A DNA stretch of 39,310 bases, taken from positions 1-39,310 of IMG/VR virus record IMGVR_UViG_3300046798_000133, one strand, 5' to 3'. Shown here piece by piece: positions 3,385 to 39,310 of this stretch (position 1 is its first letter; every line of letters starts with the position of its first letter). The notes below the pieces were generated by a model. The model was not told the origin of the DNA and searched no databases. It saw only the letters and a program-made list of their open reading frames with translations. Position numbers and translations under genes: made by a program. Origin of the DNA: a virus.

Positions 3385-4098
3385 TCACCACCACCCATCG
3401 GCGGGGTTCGCCCACTCGTAGTACGGCTGACCGATGACGCGCTGGCCGATGAGCCACAACTTCGCCCCGTCGAGGCGATAGGCCATCATGGGCGAGCCGC
3501 GCCCGCGCGAGTCGACCATGCGCTGCGGGTTGCCGGCGTCGCGGTTCTCGGCCTCGGCGTCGAGTCTCGCCAGCAGTGCGGATTTCTGGCCTGCGAAGAC
3601 CGAGACATCAGACTCCTCTTTCGCGAGCGCCTTGATGCACGCGTCGGCCACGATGTACTGGTCCCAACCGTTGTTCACGAGCACGGCCGACAGCGGGTTG
3701 CCGGAGTCGAACACGGGCGGCGACGGAACATAGAGCAGCCGCACCGTCTGCCCGGCCGCAGGGATGCTCTGATTGCTGCCGCTGAATCGGTTGCGGTCGG
3801 CGAGCGTGAAGGGCTTGAGGGTCACCCACTGATTCGCCGAGCCGTATAGGACATCGACGCCAAGCAGCTTGAAGACGTCAGATGGCAGCGCGAAGTGGTC
3901 GTTGATGCCGTCGGTCGTGAACGTGTAGGGCGGGTCTTTGACGAAGTAGTCGCCGCTGAATGCTTGGACGATGAGCCCGTAGAGCTCGGCATAGGACTGC
4001 GCAATCATCGTCGTCCACTCGGGGTCCGAGATGAACGAGCTGTTGACGCTGTCGCTGGCCTGCTTGCAGCGATCAATCATTTGCGTGAGGGTCGTCAT
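3385..4098 (-). CDS. Head-tail adaptor protein (SU10 adaptor type)
   Basis: 237 aa. The N-terminal helical pattern is very characteristic of adaptors that sit under the portal ring of podoviruses: LTQMIDRCKQASDSVNSSF, then DPEWTTMIAQSYAELYGLI, then YFVKD. The C-terminal part contains RMVDSRGRG, and it ends in Trp-Trp. The ATG at 4098 overlaps the stop of the preceding HNH gene by one base (TGATG), so the endonuclease gene lies directly upstream. The family is common in environmental short-tailed phages. Confidence is high for class and moderate for the exact subfamily. Confidence 0.8.
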   Translation of the reverse strand: MTTLTQMIDRCKQASDSVNSSFISDPEWTTMIAQSYAELYGLIVQAFSGDYFVKDPPYTFTTDGINDHFALPSDVFKLLGVDVLYGSANQWVTLKPFTLADRNRFSGSNQSIPAAGQTVRLLYVPSPPVFDSGNPLSAVLVNNGWDQYIVADACIKALAKEESDVSVFAGQKSALLARLDAEAENRDAGNPQRMVDSRGRGSPMMAYRLDGAKLWLIGQRVIGQPYYEWANPADGWW

Positions 4099-4688
4099 CA
4101 GCCAGCCCGGGCGAGGTGACCGCCCACGCCCGAAGGCGGATAACCGGGCGCAGGCGATCGGTGAGACTGAAGGTAGCGCTCAGCCGCGAGCAGGCGTGCC
4201 GGGTCCTCTCGCATGAGGCCCAATGCCTTGTTGCAGTTTCCGCAAAGAAGTCCGCGCACGACGTTCGTCGCGTGGTCGTGGTCAACATGGAAATGTCGTT
4301 GCCCGGGGTCGTTGGTGTCACAGATGGCGCAGCGCCCGTCTTGCGAAGCAAGCATCGCGTCGAATTGTTCGACGGTAATTCCGAACATTCGTTTGAGGTG
4401 GCTTTTCCTTTGGGCCTTGTGCTGCCGGTCGGGGTTTGCTCGCGCCCACGCCCGCGCGGCCGCAATGGCCTCCGTGCGATTCGCGGCATAGGCGACTTTC
4501 CGGGCAGCCACGATGGCGCCCCGATTGCGCTCGGCGTGGGCGGCCTTCGATTCCCTGTCGGCTTCGGGATGTTTCATGACCCATCTCCTCCGGGCCTCGC
4601 GACGGGAGCACTGCTCGCAGTTCGGCGTGGGTGGGGAGTTCGCAAAAACATCCCCACCACATGCCGCGCAACTCTTCTTGGTGGTCAT
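4098..4688 (-). CDS. HNH endonuclease, recombination endonuclease VII type
   Basis: 196 aa. An N-terminal zinc ribbon (C7/C10 and C24/C27) is followed by a basic, Ala/Arg-rich helical region. The C-terminal endonuclease VII-type HNH core has CAIC at 120-123, HVDHDH at 134-139, VRGLLCGNCN at 144-153, then ALG. Family members cut branched DNA or act as free-standing homing endonucleases. I chose the ATG at 4688 because a promoter sits exactly 7 nt upstream; an in-frame ATG at 4730 has no ribosome-binding site and lies inside the promoter. The gene interrupts the structural genes, as homing genes often do, and carries its own promoter and inverted repeat. Confidence 0.85.
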   Translation of the reverse strand: MTTKKSCAACGGDVFANSPPTPNCEQCSRREARRRWVMKHPEADRESKAAHAERNRGAIVAARKVAYAANRTEAIAAARAWARANPDRQHKAQRKSHLKRMFGITVEQFDAMLASQDGRCAICDTNDPGQRHFHVDHDHATNVVRGLLCGNCNKALGLMREDPARLLAAERYLQSHRSPAPGYPPSGVGGHLARAG

Positions 4689-4695
4689 GAGGCTG

Positions 4696-4724
4696 AATGT
4701 ATCTTCTTCTGAAGATACTATCAA
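4696..4724 (-). promoter_or_regulatory. Predicted promoter of the endonuclease VII gene (leaderless geometry)
   Basis: On the minus strand, TTGATA (4724-4719) is followed by 17 nt and TACATT (4701-4696), then 7 nt and the ATG at 4688. Five of six bases match the sigma70 -35 consensus and four of six match the -10. The expected start site falls at or next to the ATG. The spacing equals that of the two promoters at 24177-24247. No Shine-Dalgarno sequence precedes the ATG. Confidence 0.6.
4699..4718. repeat. Perfect inverted repeat inside the promoter spacer
   Basis: Two 8-nt arms, GTATCTTC and GAAGATAC, flank a 4-nt loop. The repeat fills the spacer of the endonuclease promoter and touches its -10 box. 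As DNA it could be an operator. As RNA in read-through transcripts from upstream late genes it would form a hairpin just before the ATG and could block translation or end transcription. Which of these applies is not decided by the sequence. Confidence 0.75.
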
Positions 4725-11963: not shown

Positions 11964-12223
11964 TTCGGCTCCGGCGGCGGCGAACACGTGACGGGGTCAC
12001 AACCGTTGACGATGCACAGACCGTTCACGTGCTCGTCGTAGAGGTGATGACCGCAGCGGCACTTCTCGTCGACGACCTGCGCCGTCTTGGTCGGCTTCGT
12101 CGGCCCGGACTGCGGCTCGAAGAACTCAACGTCGAACCCATCGAAGCCGGGGTTCCACTTACACTTCGAGACGCCGCGGGCGCGCAGCTCGTCGAGCGCC
12201 GCAGTGAAGTCGGCGAGAGTCAC
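11960..12223 (-). CDS. Cys/His-rich small protein
   Basis: 87 aa from GTG 12223, overlapping the stop of the HNH gene as GTGA. The N-terminal half (FTAALDELRARGVSKCKW) is helix then beta. The C-terminal half contains CRCGHHLYDEH and CIVNGCDPVTC, a likely zinc site with Cys and His ligands, and the tail is Pro-rich. I do not recognise the family. The longer upstream frame is a shadow of the HNH gene. Confidence 0.6.
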   Translation of the reverse strand: MTLADFTAALDELRARGVSKCKWNPGFDGFDVEFFEPQSGPTKPTKTAQVVDEKCRCGHHLYDEHVNGLCIVNGCDPVTCSPPPEPK

Positions 12224-12696
12224 CGCGCCTCGACCTCGGCCGCGTCGTCGTGCGCGTGCGTCCAAGTGACTCCGCGAACTACGTTCGACACAGATGACGG
12301 GTCGACGCACAGGCGCCTCGCGACATCGGCCTGCGTCTCTCTGCCAGACCGGACGTTGGCCCTGATCTCTCGCACGATCGATGGAGTGAATTTTGCGTTT
12401 GGCTTCCGATTGCCATGGGCGGTTCGGCCTTTGAAATGCCGATCTGCGTTGTTGTCGGAGGCGGTCCCAAGAAACAGATGCCGCGGATTCACACATACCC
12501 GATTGTCGCAGCGATGACAGACGAAGAGGCCGGGCGGAATGGGCGCGACGAACATCTCGTAGGCCGTCCGATGCGCGAGCACCATCGGGCGTTGTTTCCA
12601 CACGCCATAGCCATTCCGGTGCATGGTTCCGCTCCACGCCCAGCATTCGTCATCAGATGCCGCGTTGACGCGTCGCATGAACTCGACTCGATTCAT
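12220..12696 (-). CDS. HNH endonuclease with C-terminal helix-turn-helix
   Basis: 158 aa from ATG 12696, with GAGG 4 nt upstream; earlier in-frame ATGs at 12735 and 12726 overlap the neighbour and look less likely. CWAWSG at 18-23 and the core PPGLFVCHRCDNRVCVNPRH (55-73), with H61, N70 and H73, fit the HNH_3 fold common in phage homing endonucleases. Residues 105-145 (IVREIRANVRSG through ADVARRLCVDPSSVSNVVRG) form a helix-turn-helix that would give DNA-site choice. It sits among small genes between terL and portal. It is similar in layout to the 23323-23754 product but lacks its N-terminal zinc ribbon. Confidence 0.88.
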   Translation of the reverse strand: MNRVEFMRRVNAASDDECWAWSGTMHRNGYGVWKQRPMVLAHRTAYEMFVAPIPPGLFVCHRCDNRVCVNPRHLFLGTASDNNADRHFKGRTAHGNRKPNAKFTPSIVREIRANVRSGRETQADVARRLCVDPSSVSNVVRGVTWTHAHDDAAEVEAR

Positions 12697-22332: not shown

Positions 22333-22437
22333 TCACGCACCACGCCATGAGCCGCACCGGCCAGCGCAGGCGCGTGCGGTGGCGAGGTGGAAGGCGAGGC
22401 AGAAGAGCCACCAGCGCCAGAGGGGGCGCGGGGTCAT
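22333..22437 (-). CDS. 34-aa Trp-rich hydrophobic mini-protein
   Basis: ATG 22437 overlaps the upstream stop as ATGA. The N-terminus (PLWRWWLFCLAFHLATARAC) is hydrophobic and Trp-rich, like a short membrane or signal segment; two further Cys follow closely. It fills most of the 179-bp gap between 22254 and 22434 together with the 25-aa gene. Confidence 0.38.
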   Translation of the reverse strand: MTPRPLWRWWLFCLAFHLATARACAGRCGSWRGA

Positions 22438-23195
22438 GGCGACACCAGGTCAAGCGGCTGCTGGCAAACCGGACCACACTCGATCGCGTCGTCGGGCGCA
22501 TCGGCGTCGAGCGGCAGTTCGTCGAGAAAGCAGCGAATCGCGCGCCGCTTGCCGTCGACGCGTTCTTCGCCAAGGCGCACTAGGCGCACGCCGAGCAGGC
22601 GAGACCGCATCGCCCGGCGCGCGAAGACCTCAGGGAAGAGACGTCGAACGCGGTTCCAGTAGCCGGGGCTGGAGGCCTTCACGCACCCGATGCAGTTGTT
22701 GTGGTCGAACCCCAGTGCGTACATCGCCGGCAGCTCGATGCCGACCTTGCGCACGATGCGACGGCAGTCCGCCTCGCGCACGTGCTGGTCGATGAGAATC
22801 CATTCGACGTGAAGCGCGGGGTTGTTCTCTTCGAAGAGATCGGCGCGGTCCTGCTCATCGAAGCCGTAGCCGAAGATGTGAATGTCGTCGCGGCGCTGCC
22901 ACGCCTCGCGCGGAAGCTTCTTCAGCTCAGTCGTGCAACGAGCGCCCGCGACGCCGGCCATGTAGCGAGTCCCCTCAAACACCTCATCGACGGTGGCGTA
23001 CTTGTCCGACCGAATCAGTGTGAACGTGCGGCCGACCCATCGCTCAACGTCGGCCAGAAAGCGCGCATTGTCGGGATGCTCGTCGCGACTTGTGTCGCAG
23101 TAGACGACCTCGCACGCGTTGCCGTACTTCTCTACGGCCAACTTCGCCGCCACTGCGGACGGGGCGCCGCACGAGAACCACGCCACGCGCCTCAC
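22434..23195 (-). CDS. PAPS-reductase-like PP-loop protein
   Basis: 253 aa from GTG 23195 (GTGA overlap). Adenine-nucleotide alpha-hydrolase fold: AWFSCGAPSAVAAKLA (5-20) stands where canonical PAPS reductases have SGGKDS. Then EVVYCDTSRDEHPDN (29-43) and GARCTTELKK (84-93) follow the family order. NNCIGCVK (C168, C171) and ECGPVC (C240, C244) could bind an Fe-S cluster or zinc. Phage members are usually annotated as sulfotransferase/reductase but their substrate is not known; a nucleic-acid or sulfur-transfer role is possible. It lies in the early leftward operon beside an HNH gene, not in a sulfur-assimilation cluster. Confidence 0.75.
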   Translation of the reverse strand: MRRVAWFSCGAPSAVAAKLAVEKYGNACEVVYCDTSRDEHPDNARFLADVERWVGRTFTLIRSDKYATVDEVFEGTRYMAGVAGARCTTELKKLPREAWQRRDDIHIFGYGFDEQDRADLFEENNPALHVEWILIDQHVREADCRRIVRKVGIELPAMYALGFDHNNCIGCVKASSPGYWNRVRRLFPEVFARRAMRSRLLGVRLVRLGEERVDGKRRAIRCFLDELPLDADAPDDAIECGPVCQQPLDLVSP

Positions 23196-23326
23196 GAGCG
23201 CCCCTCCACTGTGTCGACCTTGTGTGGGACCGCGAGCCAACGCGCGCTATTCCGTGCTACTTCAGAGGGCGCAACGACGGCCTCGACGTAGGGTCTGGGC
23301 TTCCTAAGACAACGTTCGCGGGTCAT
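23192..23326 (-). CDS. 44-aa protein, unknown
   Basis: ATG 23326 overlaps the HNH stop (ATGA) and its own stop overlaps the PP-loop gene start (GTGA). The product is basic at the N-terminus (MTRERCLRKPRPYVEAVVAP). Supported mainly by the two-sided overlaps. Confidence 0.45.
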   Translation of the reverse strand: MTRERCLRKPRPYVEAVVAPSEVARNSARWLAVPHKVDTVEGRS

Positions 23327-23754
23327 GCGGCCTCCGAGCGAATCGGCTCGCCGCGAGCCGCACGGTAGCGGCGCAGCATGTTCTCGGCGCCCGTCACGAT
23401 CTCGAGGTGCGCCGGGTTGCAACAGCACTTCATGCGGCAGACGTGGTCGAGCTGCATGCCGGGCGGAATGGGTCCGCGCTCAAGTTCGAACGCGAACCGA
23501 TGCGCGAGCACCATCGACGCATCGGCTCGACAGAAGAAGCCGTAGCCACCGGTTTGCCAGCCGCCAGCCCAAAGCCAACAACCGGTGTTCGGCTCTGGCG
23601 AAACGAACGACCAGAAACGCTCGACCTCGGTTCTTGCGTAGTACTCGCCAGCCGGTCGACAGACGCCGTTGATGCGCATTTGCGAGTAGTGCGTTGAACA
23701 CAGGCCGCGCGCGCAATGCGGCTTCCCACATCCCTCGAACGAACAAATCCTCAC
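23323..23754 (-). CDS. HNH endonuclease with N-terminal zinc ribbon
   Basis: 143 aa from GTG 23754 (GTGA overlap upstream, ATGA downstream). The zinc ribbon C4-C9...C14-C19-H22 is followed by CWLWAG (59-64), GYGFF (70-74) and HRFAFE (85-90). The core PPGMQLDHVCRMKCCCNPAH (97-116) has H104, N113 and H116, the HNH_3 layout with Cys ligands. It could be a homing endonuclease or a nuclease used in DNA entry or packaging. Full 4-nt overlap on both sides means it is well integrated into the operon rather than a recent loose insertion. Confidence 0.88.
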   Translation of the reverse strand: MRICSFEGCGKPHCARGLCSTHYSQMRINGVCRPAGEYYARTEVERFWSFVSPEPNTGCWLWAGGWQTGGYGFFCRADASMVLAHRFAFELERGPIPPGMQLDHVCRMKCCCNPAHLEIVTGAENMLRRYRAARGEPIRSEAA

Positions 23755-23960
23755 GACCACACCTCGACGAGCGGCGCATGCCACGCCTCGCGGCGCCAAG
23801 AGCCGCCGCGCAGCGTCCAGTAACCAGCACAGCCGCGCTCGGCGTAGGGCCGCACACACCAGCGACGCGCGCCAACGGCGATGAGCGTCCCGGCGCACTG
23901 CGGGCACGACTCGGTGAGCAGGTCGCTTGCGACGGGAAGGGGAAGGGCGGTGGAGATCAC
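23751..23960 (-). CDS. Small zinc-ribbon protein
   Basis: 69 aa from GTG 23960 (GTGA overlap). CPQCAGTLIAVGARRWCVRP and a later CAGYW make a small zinc-ribbon pattern like those that check templates or bind single-stranded DNA. Second gene of the leftward operon. Function unknown. Confidence 0.62.
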   Translation of the reverse strand: MISTALPLPVASDLLTESCPQCAGTLIAVGARRWCVRPYAERGCAGYWTLRGGSWRREAWHAPLVEVWS

Positions 23961-24169
23961 GCCGACCTCCGCGCGCGCTTCGGCTCCGGCAGCCACGACT
24001 CCACCGGCACCAATCCGCCCGTAACCTGCTCGATGCGCACGGCGACCTCCAGCGATGGTTTCTTGCCGTCGCCCAAGAAAACGTAGACGGCCTGCCGCGA
24101 CGCGCCAATCTTCTTGGCGAACTCGGCCACGGGTTGATGCGACTGCTCCAAGTAGTCTTTCAGCTTCAT
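23957..24169 (-). CDS. Cro/CI-like HTH regulator (first leftward gene)
   Basis: 70 aa from ATG 24169; an upstream in-frame start at 24268 would run through the promoter and is rejected. Residues 1-35 (MKLKDYLEQSHQPVAEFAKK then IGASRQAVYVFLGDGKKPSL) form a lambda-repressor-like helix-turn-helix with recognition helix around SRQAVYVFL. A short C-terminal part (VRIEQVTGGLVPVESW) could dimerise. It faces the rightward operon across an 85-bp control region, as Cro does, and likely binds there. No peptidase domain is present, so it is Cro-like rather than a cleavable CI. Confidence 0.85.
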   Translation of the reverse strand: MKLKDYLEQSHQPVAEFAKKIGASRQAVYVFLGDGKKPSLEVAVRIEQVTGGLVPVESWLPEPKRARRSA

Positions 24170-24176
24170 GTCGAAC

Positions 24177-24205
24177 AAGGTACAGATTCTTGGTCGGCAA
24201 GTCAA
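24177..24205 (-). promoter_or_regulatory. Predicted leftward promoter
   Basis: Minus-strand TTGACT (24205-24200), 17-nt spacer, TACCTT (24182-24177), then 7 nt to ATG 24169. The -35 matches five of six consensus bases and the -10 three of six. No ribosome-binding site lies between -10 and ATG, so the mRNA would be leaderless. Confidence 0.62.
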
Positions 24206-24215
24206 TGTCGATTGA
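24202..24215. promoter_or_regulatory. Candidate operator between the divergent promoters
   Basis: TCAAT-GTCG-ATTGA is a perfect 5-bp inverted repeat with a 4-bp centre. It overlaps the leftward -35 box and ends 3 bp before the rightward -35 box, so one bound repressor could affect both promoters. It is the natural site for the adjacent Cro-like protein. Single site only. Confidence 0.5.
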
Positions 24216-24218
24216 TGC

Positions 24219-24247
24219 TTGACAAGGTCGGTTGACGCGTGCATTAT
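24219..24247 (+). promoter_or_regulatory. Predicted rightward early promoter
   Basis: TTGACA (perfect -35, 24219-24224), 17-nt spacer, CATTAT (four of six, 24242-24247), then 7 nt to ATG 24255. The only purine-rich bases before the ATG are GGTGG, too close for a normal ribosome-binding site. A second TTGAC lies inside the spacer at 24232. Confidence 0.68.
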
Positions 24248-24254
24248 GGTGGTC

Positions 24255-24485
24255 ATGAACGCAAACAACGAAGCGGCGGGCGGGGCGAAGAAGACGACTC
24301 CTCAGACGGCGGACGAGATGATTGCGGCGCTGACCGCCAGCCTTGCGGCGCTCGGCCGGAAGTACCTCGGCCCTTGCTACGAGCACTGCACGATGGCGGA
24401 CGGCTCCGTCCGCCTCGTCCGCATCGAACTGTGGAGCGTCAACGGCGAGCGCTCATTCGGCCGGATTCTGGAGGTGCTCTCGTGA
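24255..24485 (+). CDS. First rightward early protein, unknown function
   Basis: 76 aa from ATG 24255; the in-frame start at 24219 lies on the -35 box. The N-terminus is polar, then helical (ADEMIAALTASLAALGRKYL), then beta-like (SVRLVRIELWSVNG). The first gene of a phage early operon often acts on host takeover; nothing in the sequence shows it here. Confidence 0.65.
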   Translation: MNANNEAAGGAKKTTPQTADEMIAALTASLAALGRKYLGPCYEHCTMADGSVRLVRIELWSVNGERSFGRILEVLS

Positions 24486-29921: not shown

Positions 29922-30181
29922 CGCTCTTTGAACACGCCGCCGCCGTGCGCCGGTTCTGGTCAACCATCGGCACGAAGAAGATTCTCCCGAAGCTGAGCGC
30001 CGAGGGCGAGGCGCTTCTCGCGGCGATTGAGCGCGTGCCTGACGGCGTGCTGGTGTCGCGGGCGGCGCTGGAGCGGTGGCGCGACGGCTGTTGGTGTGAC
30101 GATCGCGACGGCAACTGCAACCCGCCGCACAACGCGAACTGCGAGCGGTGCGCGGAGATTGCCGCGCTGCTCCGCGGCTAG
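29918..30181 (+). CDS. Last rightward gene: Cys-rich small protein
   Basis: 87 aa from ATG 29918 (ATGA overlap). The N-terminal helix-rich part (PKLSAEGEALLAAIERVPDG) is followed by a Cys-rich end (DGCWCDDRDGNCNPPHNANC plus one more Cys). It ends at TAG 30181, sharing CTAG with the stop of the convergent gene. Unknown function. Confidence 0.6.
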   Translation: MTLFEHAAAVRRFWSTIGTKKILPKLSAEGEALLAAIERVPDGVLVSRAALERWRDGCWCDDRDGNCNPPHNANCERCAEIAALLRG

Positions 30182-38857: not shown

Positions 38858-39310
38858 CTAGCCCACCGTCTGGGCTGCAGGTAGCTTGCGGACGCCGCGC
38901 TTGATGCCGACTTCCAGCGCGAGCGCCTGTAGGCCGGAGATTCTGTTTGCGGCGGGCGACGCCGGGGTCTCGGACCACTTGAAGCGCATTGACTTGCACT
39001 TCTGGAACCGAAGCTTGTGCCTGAAGTCCAGAGTTGTGTTGAGTCCTCCGAGCGTCACGGTGCCGCACGGCACGGAGATGGAGTAGTAGTTCGGGTTGGA
39101 CGTCGCGTCGGAGTCGTCGAAGTAGAAACCAATCACGAGCGTGCTGTTTGGGTTGGTCGCCGAGAATGAGAAGTAGGCGCGGCGGATTCGCTGGTACGAC
39201 TCCAGCGCATCGAGATGCAGCCACGACGAGGTTCCGCCAATCTCAAACCCGGTATCCCCGAGCGCGTTGGTGCTGTCGAAGGTCGTTCCAGCCACGTCAA
39301 CGTTGACGCC
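38858..39310 (-). CDS. Tail nozzle/hub protein, C-terminal part (continues at 2923)
   Basis: The frame enters from the other contig end (base 39183 joins base 1) and stops at TAG 38858. LESYQRIRRAYFSFSAT, a beta-rich part with FYFDDS, and RFQKCKSMRFKW then GLQALALEVGIKRGVRKLPA match the conserved end of podovirus nozzle proteins. Any apparent start inside this piece, such as GTG 39295, is an artefact of the cut. The full gene is about 1082 codons. Confidence 0.8.
   Translation of the reverse strand, partial: GVNVDVAGTTFDSTNALGDTGFEIGGTSSWLHLDALESYQRIRRAYFSFSATNPNSTLVIGFYFDDSDATSNPNYYSISVPCGTVTLGGLNTTLDFRHKLRFQKCKSMRFKWSETPASPAANRISGLQALALEVGIKRGVRKLPAAQTVG
39184..39310. repeat. Direct terminal repeat, right copy
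   Basis: Identical to 1-127; this copy should be removed when the circle is closed. Confidence 0.95.

Follow-up and report, generated by a model that had tools for sequence, protein, structure and literature searches.

A divergent promoter region with two predicted leaderless first genes as the probable early-transcription hub of a two-operon phage

Can the two first genes of a phage both be expressed without a leader, and what would such an arrangement control? This question is raised by the viral record IMGVR_UViG_3300046798_000133, which we analysed over its whole length of 39,310 nucleotides (the window). A Cro-like gene and a gene for a 76-aa protein diverge here from 85 bp of DNA (24170–24254). 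A preliminary description had placed a promoter so close to each start codon that both transcripts would begin at the ATG, and had read the pair as a phage master switch that would hint at efficient translation of leaderless mRNA in the host and might link switching to ribosome state.

The order of −35 box, 17 nt, −10 box, 7 nt and ATG was confirmed exactly on both strands (Table 1), and the two −35 boxes stand back to back, 13 bp apart. Promoters were scanned with an E. coli sigma70 matrix of approximate frequencies from general knowledge, which may not be those of the host; the chosen promoter scored 8.2 for the Cro-like gene as compared with 5.1 for the next distinct site, and 11.2 as compared with 3.7 for the 76-aa gene. 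The claim that no ribosome-binding site precedes either start was also borne out: the energy of pairing with the anti-Shine–Dalgarno (anti-SD) sequence was +0.4 kcal/mol for the Cro-like gene and a weak −2.8 kcal/mol for its partner, as against a median of −6.1 kcal/mol for the 55 other called genes, 78% of which pair at −4.0 or better. The latter figure rules out leaderless starts as a general habit of this phage.

Table 1. Coordinates of the genes, promoters and candidate operators discussed in the text.
Feature	Position	Strand	Details
Cro/YdaS-like regulator, 70 aa, heads leftward operon, predicted leaderless	23957..24169	(−)	PHROG_35 and Cro-structure profile matches; no SD
Cro-like gene promoter	24177..24205	(−)	TTGACT 24205-24200, 17 nt, TACCTT 24182-24177, 7 nt, ATG 24169
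Candidate operator 1, CTTGGTCGGCAAG	24189..24201		In cro promoter spacer; imperfect palindrome around GTCGG; weak
Candidate operator 2, TCAATGTCGATTGA	24202..24215		Perfect 5-bp arms; overlaps cro −35
Candidate operator 3, CAAGGTCGGTTG	24223..24234		10/12 match to operator 2, 20 bp away; within rightward promoter
First rightward gene promoter	24219..24247	(+)	TTGACA 24219-24224, 17 nt, CATTAT 24242-24247, 7 nt, ATG 24255
76-aa orphan protein, heads rightward (recombination) operon, predicted leaderless	24255..24485	(+)	Coding score
Second HNH_3 endonuclease gene	23323-23751	(−)	HNH_3 match
PAPS reductase-like gene, replication operon	22434-23240	(−)	phrog_424, 7.6e-46
HNH_3 endonuclease gene with C-terminal HTH	about 12180-12650	(−)	HNH_3 match
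Endonuclease VII family gene, third leaderless-type, between structural genes	4098..4688	(−)	PF02945, 9e-23; anti-SD pairing −0.8 kcal/mol
Endonuclease gene promoter	4696..4724	(−)	TTGATA 4724-4719, 17 nt, TACATT 4701-4696, 7 nt, ATG 4688

Eight sites on the two strands of the window scored at least 8. Three of these have an ATG 5–8 nt downstream, each with a spacer of exactly 17 nt and a gap of exactly 7 nt, which falls within the 5–8 nt range taken as the leaderless criterion; the remaining five are antisense or lie within genes. Dinucleotide-shuffled windows (n = 300) contained on average 0.017 sites with such an ATG, with a maximum of 1. Because the cut-off of 8 was set after the two reported sites had been seen, it is the third site (ATG 4688, minus strand) that serves as independent evidence. 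Bacterial TA-led (leaderless) genes, which are common in some phyla, carry, some 10 bp ahead of the start codon, a −10-like signal (Zheng et al, 2011; PMC3160421). The closeness of this signal to the start codon is shared by the genes described here; that survey, however, concerned host genomes, whereas here the signal is confined to the unit-heading genes of one phage. The third site belongs to a gene of the endonuclease VII family, which has its own 17/7/ATG promoter inside the structural operon and is possibly a mobile gene that brought its own leaderless promoter with it.

On the rightward side, the predicted leaderless start was read from a single sequence, as sequence and profile searches with the 76-aa protein returned no homolog, no family and no helix-turn-helix (HTH) match. 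Two further in-frame codons precede ATG 24255, namely ATG 24246, which lies inside the −10 box, and GTG 24249; both are 5′ of any start site expected from the rightward promoter. Alternatively, the rightward RNA may start at 24254–24255 and be translated from Met22 (ATG 24318) behind a leader of ~63 nt, which would leave only the Cro-like gene leaderless. The SD-like pairing before Met22 (−5.0 kcal/mol versus −2.8 before ATG 24255) fits such a start, but codons 1–21 lie inside the best-scoring coding frame and the distance between ATG 24255 and its −10 box is identical to that in the cro and endonuclease genes. We consider initiation at Met22 unlikely and retain ATG 24255 as the predicted start.

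To what these promoters lead can be followed through the whole genome. The two ends of the record (1–127 and 39184–39310) are identical over 127 bp and a 1082-aa frame reads across their junction; despite the linear class given to the record, we conclude from this that it represents a complete genome of about 39,183 bp. Every called gene belongs to one of two operons that diverge from the region between the Cro-like and 76-aa genes and converge near 30,180. The leftward operon begins with the Cro-like gene, an HNH gene, and genes for a PAPS reductase, a replication initiator and a DnaC-like loader, and runs on round the genome, through genes for terminase, portal, capsid and tail, as far as 30,178. 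The rightward operon consists of the 76-aa gene, small orphans, and genes for a DnaQ-like exonuclease, a RecE-like exonuclease, RecT and a DNA methyltransferase. Nearly all transcription of the phage appears to start from this one 85-base divergent promoter region.

Searches of the complete genome for a tyrosine integrase (PF00589) and a resolvase (PF00239), in which the positive controls worked, found neither, and no CI-like repressor or S24 peptidase was found. An HTH_3 search of the genome for a second regulatory HTH matched cro and an HNH protein, the latter in its tail, and nothing else. Because a CI-like repressor, integrase, resolvase and S24 protein are missing from a complete genome, the description of the region as a master switch in the lysis–lysogeny sense is not supported, and a hub of early transcription that serves two operons describes it better. 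Lysogeny or maintenance of a plasmid type is conceivable for this phage. We also considered a true lysis–lysogeny switch with the 76-aa protein in the role of CI, as a repressor that went unrecognised, since its gene faces the Cro-like gene and many relatives carry an HTH repressor at that place. However, the 76-aa protein matches no HTH or other family, the complete genome has no integrase, resolvase or S24 protein, and the gene leads a recombination operon (DnaQ, RecE-like exonuclease, RecT), which is the place of lambda PL rather than of cI. Such a switch is very unlikely, and we continue with the hub.

The product of the Cro-like gene matches the PHROG_35 transcriptional repressor family (3e-7), and its family profile matches the solved phage Cro structures 8co2, 8c7k and 3bd1 (about 1e-6 for 8co2 and 8c7k); an HTH of the Cro/YdaS type is thus present by profile. 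Its match to YdaS (PF15943; 5.7e-4) reaches 20.1 bits with a gathering cut-off of 30, and we therefore refer to the protein as Cro/YdaS-like rather than as a formal member of the YdaS_toxin family.

Scans of viral contigs with RecT, portal and DnaC found no near relatives of the phage. Its portal protein had no match among known phages, its terminase and RecT matches (~30–40% identity) were spread over many hosts, and no tRNA genes were found in it. In the absence of near relatives and of homologs of the 76-aa protein, the comparison with relatives covers the Cro side only. Homologs of the Cro-like protein (~27–41% identity) were collected from viral contigs, named phages and 783 genome draws of Pseudomonadota; a scan of genome contigs with a two-sequence alignment gave a single locus. 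For each homolog the 60 nt upstream of the start codon were scanned, and the end of the best promoter was recorded. Of the 20 viral loci counted, which do not include the window or the four loci examined first, 10 had this end 5–8 nt before the start codon (p 1e-7); the viral set had been inspected by eye before the rule was settled. The genome loci had not been so inspected, and 26 of 56 had the end in this range (p 2e-16); the shuffled expectation was 6–7% across the two sets. When pooled, 36/76 homologs fit, as opposed to 5/121 control genes, drawn from six annotated phages as well as from the window (Fisher 3e-13), and after clustering at 50% identity 21/54 homologs still do so. About half of the homologs depart from the 5–8 nt rule, and some of them (L011, L021 and L063) have clear SD leaders. 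The distance from −10 box to ATG, for which variation among related phages had been named as a point against leaderless starts, therefore does not refute them on the Cro side.

The same scan was applied to 16 more distant Cro genes, mostly of the lambda/P22 type from gammaproteobacterial phages. Only one was leaderless-like, the best promoters lying mostly 21–34 nt upstream and most genes having an SD, in many cases a strong one, whereas the cI genes of the same switches were leaderless-like in 5 of 16 cases, as expected from lambda cI. It follows from these two fractions that the scan can discriminate and that the predicted leaderless Cro start is a trait of a short subfamily, in which the protein begins directly at the HTH (MKLxxYL). 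That all phage Cro genes are leaderless is ruled out by the single case among these mostly gammaproteobacterial switches. At least seven independent relatives (L009, L013/L014, L025, L031, L039, L046 and L054, of which L031 is Microcystis phage Mae-JY35, PP438426) are predicted to be leaderless on both sides. In these relatives, the divergent gene encodes an HTH repressor, with its best promoter 5–8 nt before a start codon and little or no SD.

Open frames of ~400–540 codons in Pseudomonadota genomes begin with the same Cro/YdaS-like domain (L055, L068, L071, L075, L077, L078, L080, L081 and L091), and most of these frames likewise have their best promoter ending 5–8 nt before the start codon.

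The relatives also bear on the possibility that the called sites are not true promoters and that the genes are read, with normal leaders, from an upstream promoter of a phage-specific or other sigma factor. The E. coli origin of the matrix lends this some weight, but no sigma70 site near the genes is stronger than the called ones, the cro start has no SD, and the position of the best site is kept in remote homologs of other genomes. We regard an upstream promoter as quite improbable. With its geometry confirmed, its Cro side kept in distant relatives and other genes of the phage without this feature, the pair of leaderless first genes holds as a prediction.

Three candidate operators are found in and next to the promoters. 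The repeat formed by the second and third is barely above chance and not significant on its own (p about 0.08); at this value the operators were dropped as statistical evidence and kept as candidates. We propose that the RNA from each of two promoters of the host sigma70 type begins no more than two bases from the A of the ATG, and that the Cro-like and 76-aa genes would be translated from leaderless or near-leaderless mRNA, with the genes behind them mostly using SD sequences. The Cro-like protein probably binds the candidate GTCG-centred sites overlapping both promoters and would, after an early burst, repress its own and the divergent operon. As the repeats are only marginally above chance, this repression step is inferred from the behaviour of Cro/YdaS (PMC8630535). 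The leader is most likely missing because, in this compact design, some 40 bp accommodate operator, promoter and start codon, and leaderlessness would be an inherited trait of the short Cro/YdaS subfamily. We conclude that the 85-bp region is probably an early-transcription hub with two leaderless first genes and Cro-like repression of both operons. Upstream of cro in five relatives (L009, L010, L020, L024 and L031), clear palindromes are found, for example TACCAATTTGGTA and TCACCAAAATGGTGA, between the −35 and −10 boxes; these are likely to be Cro operators.

The arrangement has counterparts in known phages. In the immB region of PY54, a telomere phage of Yersinia, a repressor gene and cro diverge, and 5′ RACE found for cI and for cro a single leaderless mRNA starting at the AUG (PMC4488713). 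PY54 differs in that it encodes a CI repressor and, as a temperate phage, has a plasmid prophage state, whereas here there is no CI and a 76-aa orphan leads the recombination operon. In CP-933P of E. coli O157:H7, the Cro-like YdaS faces the repressor PaaR2, operators overlap both promoters, and paaR2 is leaderless, the N-terminus of its protein having been sequenced (PMC8630535). YdaS is the nearest Pfam match to our Cro-like protein, as the phage Cro structures are its nearest solved relatives; in CP-933P, however, the repressor alone and not ydaS was reported to be leaderless (PMC8630535), while here the Cro-like gene is predicted to be so. Because PY54 cI and cro and CP-933P paaR2 are leaderless in phages of enterobacteria, an unusual host is not required. 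The suggestion of a host that translates leaderless mRNA well thus keeps the hint given by the third leaderless-type gene and loses its necessity.

The classical leaderless mRNA is that of lambda cI; lambda cro carries both a leader and an SD, and cI–rex separates PL from PR. Here too, a Cro-like gene heads the replication operon and recombination genes head the opposite one. In contrast to lambda cro, the Cro-like gene is predicted to be leaderless, and the two promoters resemble PR and PL placed back to back without the cI region, so that they touch.

Accounts of leaderless switch genes in phages usually treat them as a peculiarity of lambda cI. The sequence comparisons suggest that leaderless expression of cro is the recurrent condition in one Cro subfamily, and that several unrelated phages and prophages have switches that are leaderless on both sides. 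The double arrangement is already known, having been proven in PY54, and appears here to be common to distant relatives of the Cro-like regulator. A broader reading, which we offer tentatively as possible but doubtful, is that short Cro/YdaS regulators are leaderless throughout their lineage, in phages of Alphaproteobacteria, cyanobacteria and others and on one or both sides of the switch, and that all promoter-bearing unit-heading genes of the present phage are leaderless, with early expression tracking the 70S/30S balance. The lineage would then mirror lambda, in which leaderlessness is confined to cI. Leaderless initiation does not need the usual 30S pathway; were all of these unit-heading genes leaderless, early expression as a whole would respond to the balance of 70S against 30S initiation. 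These loci would provide natural, easily cloned switches for asking whether leaderless initiation makes phage decisions sensitive to the state of the ribosome.
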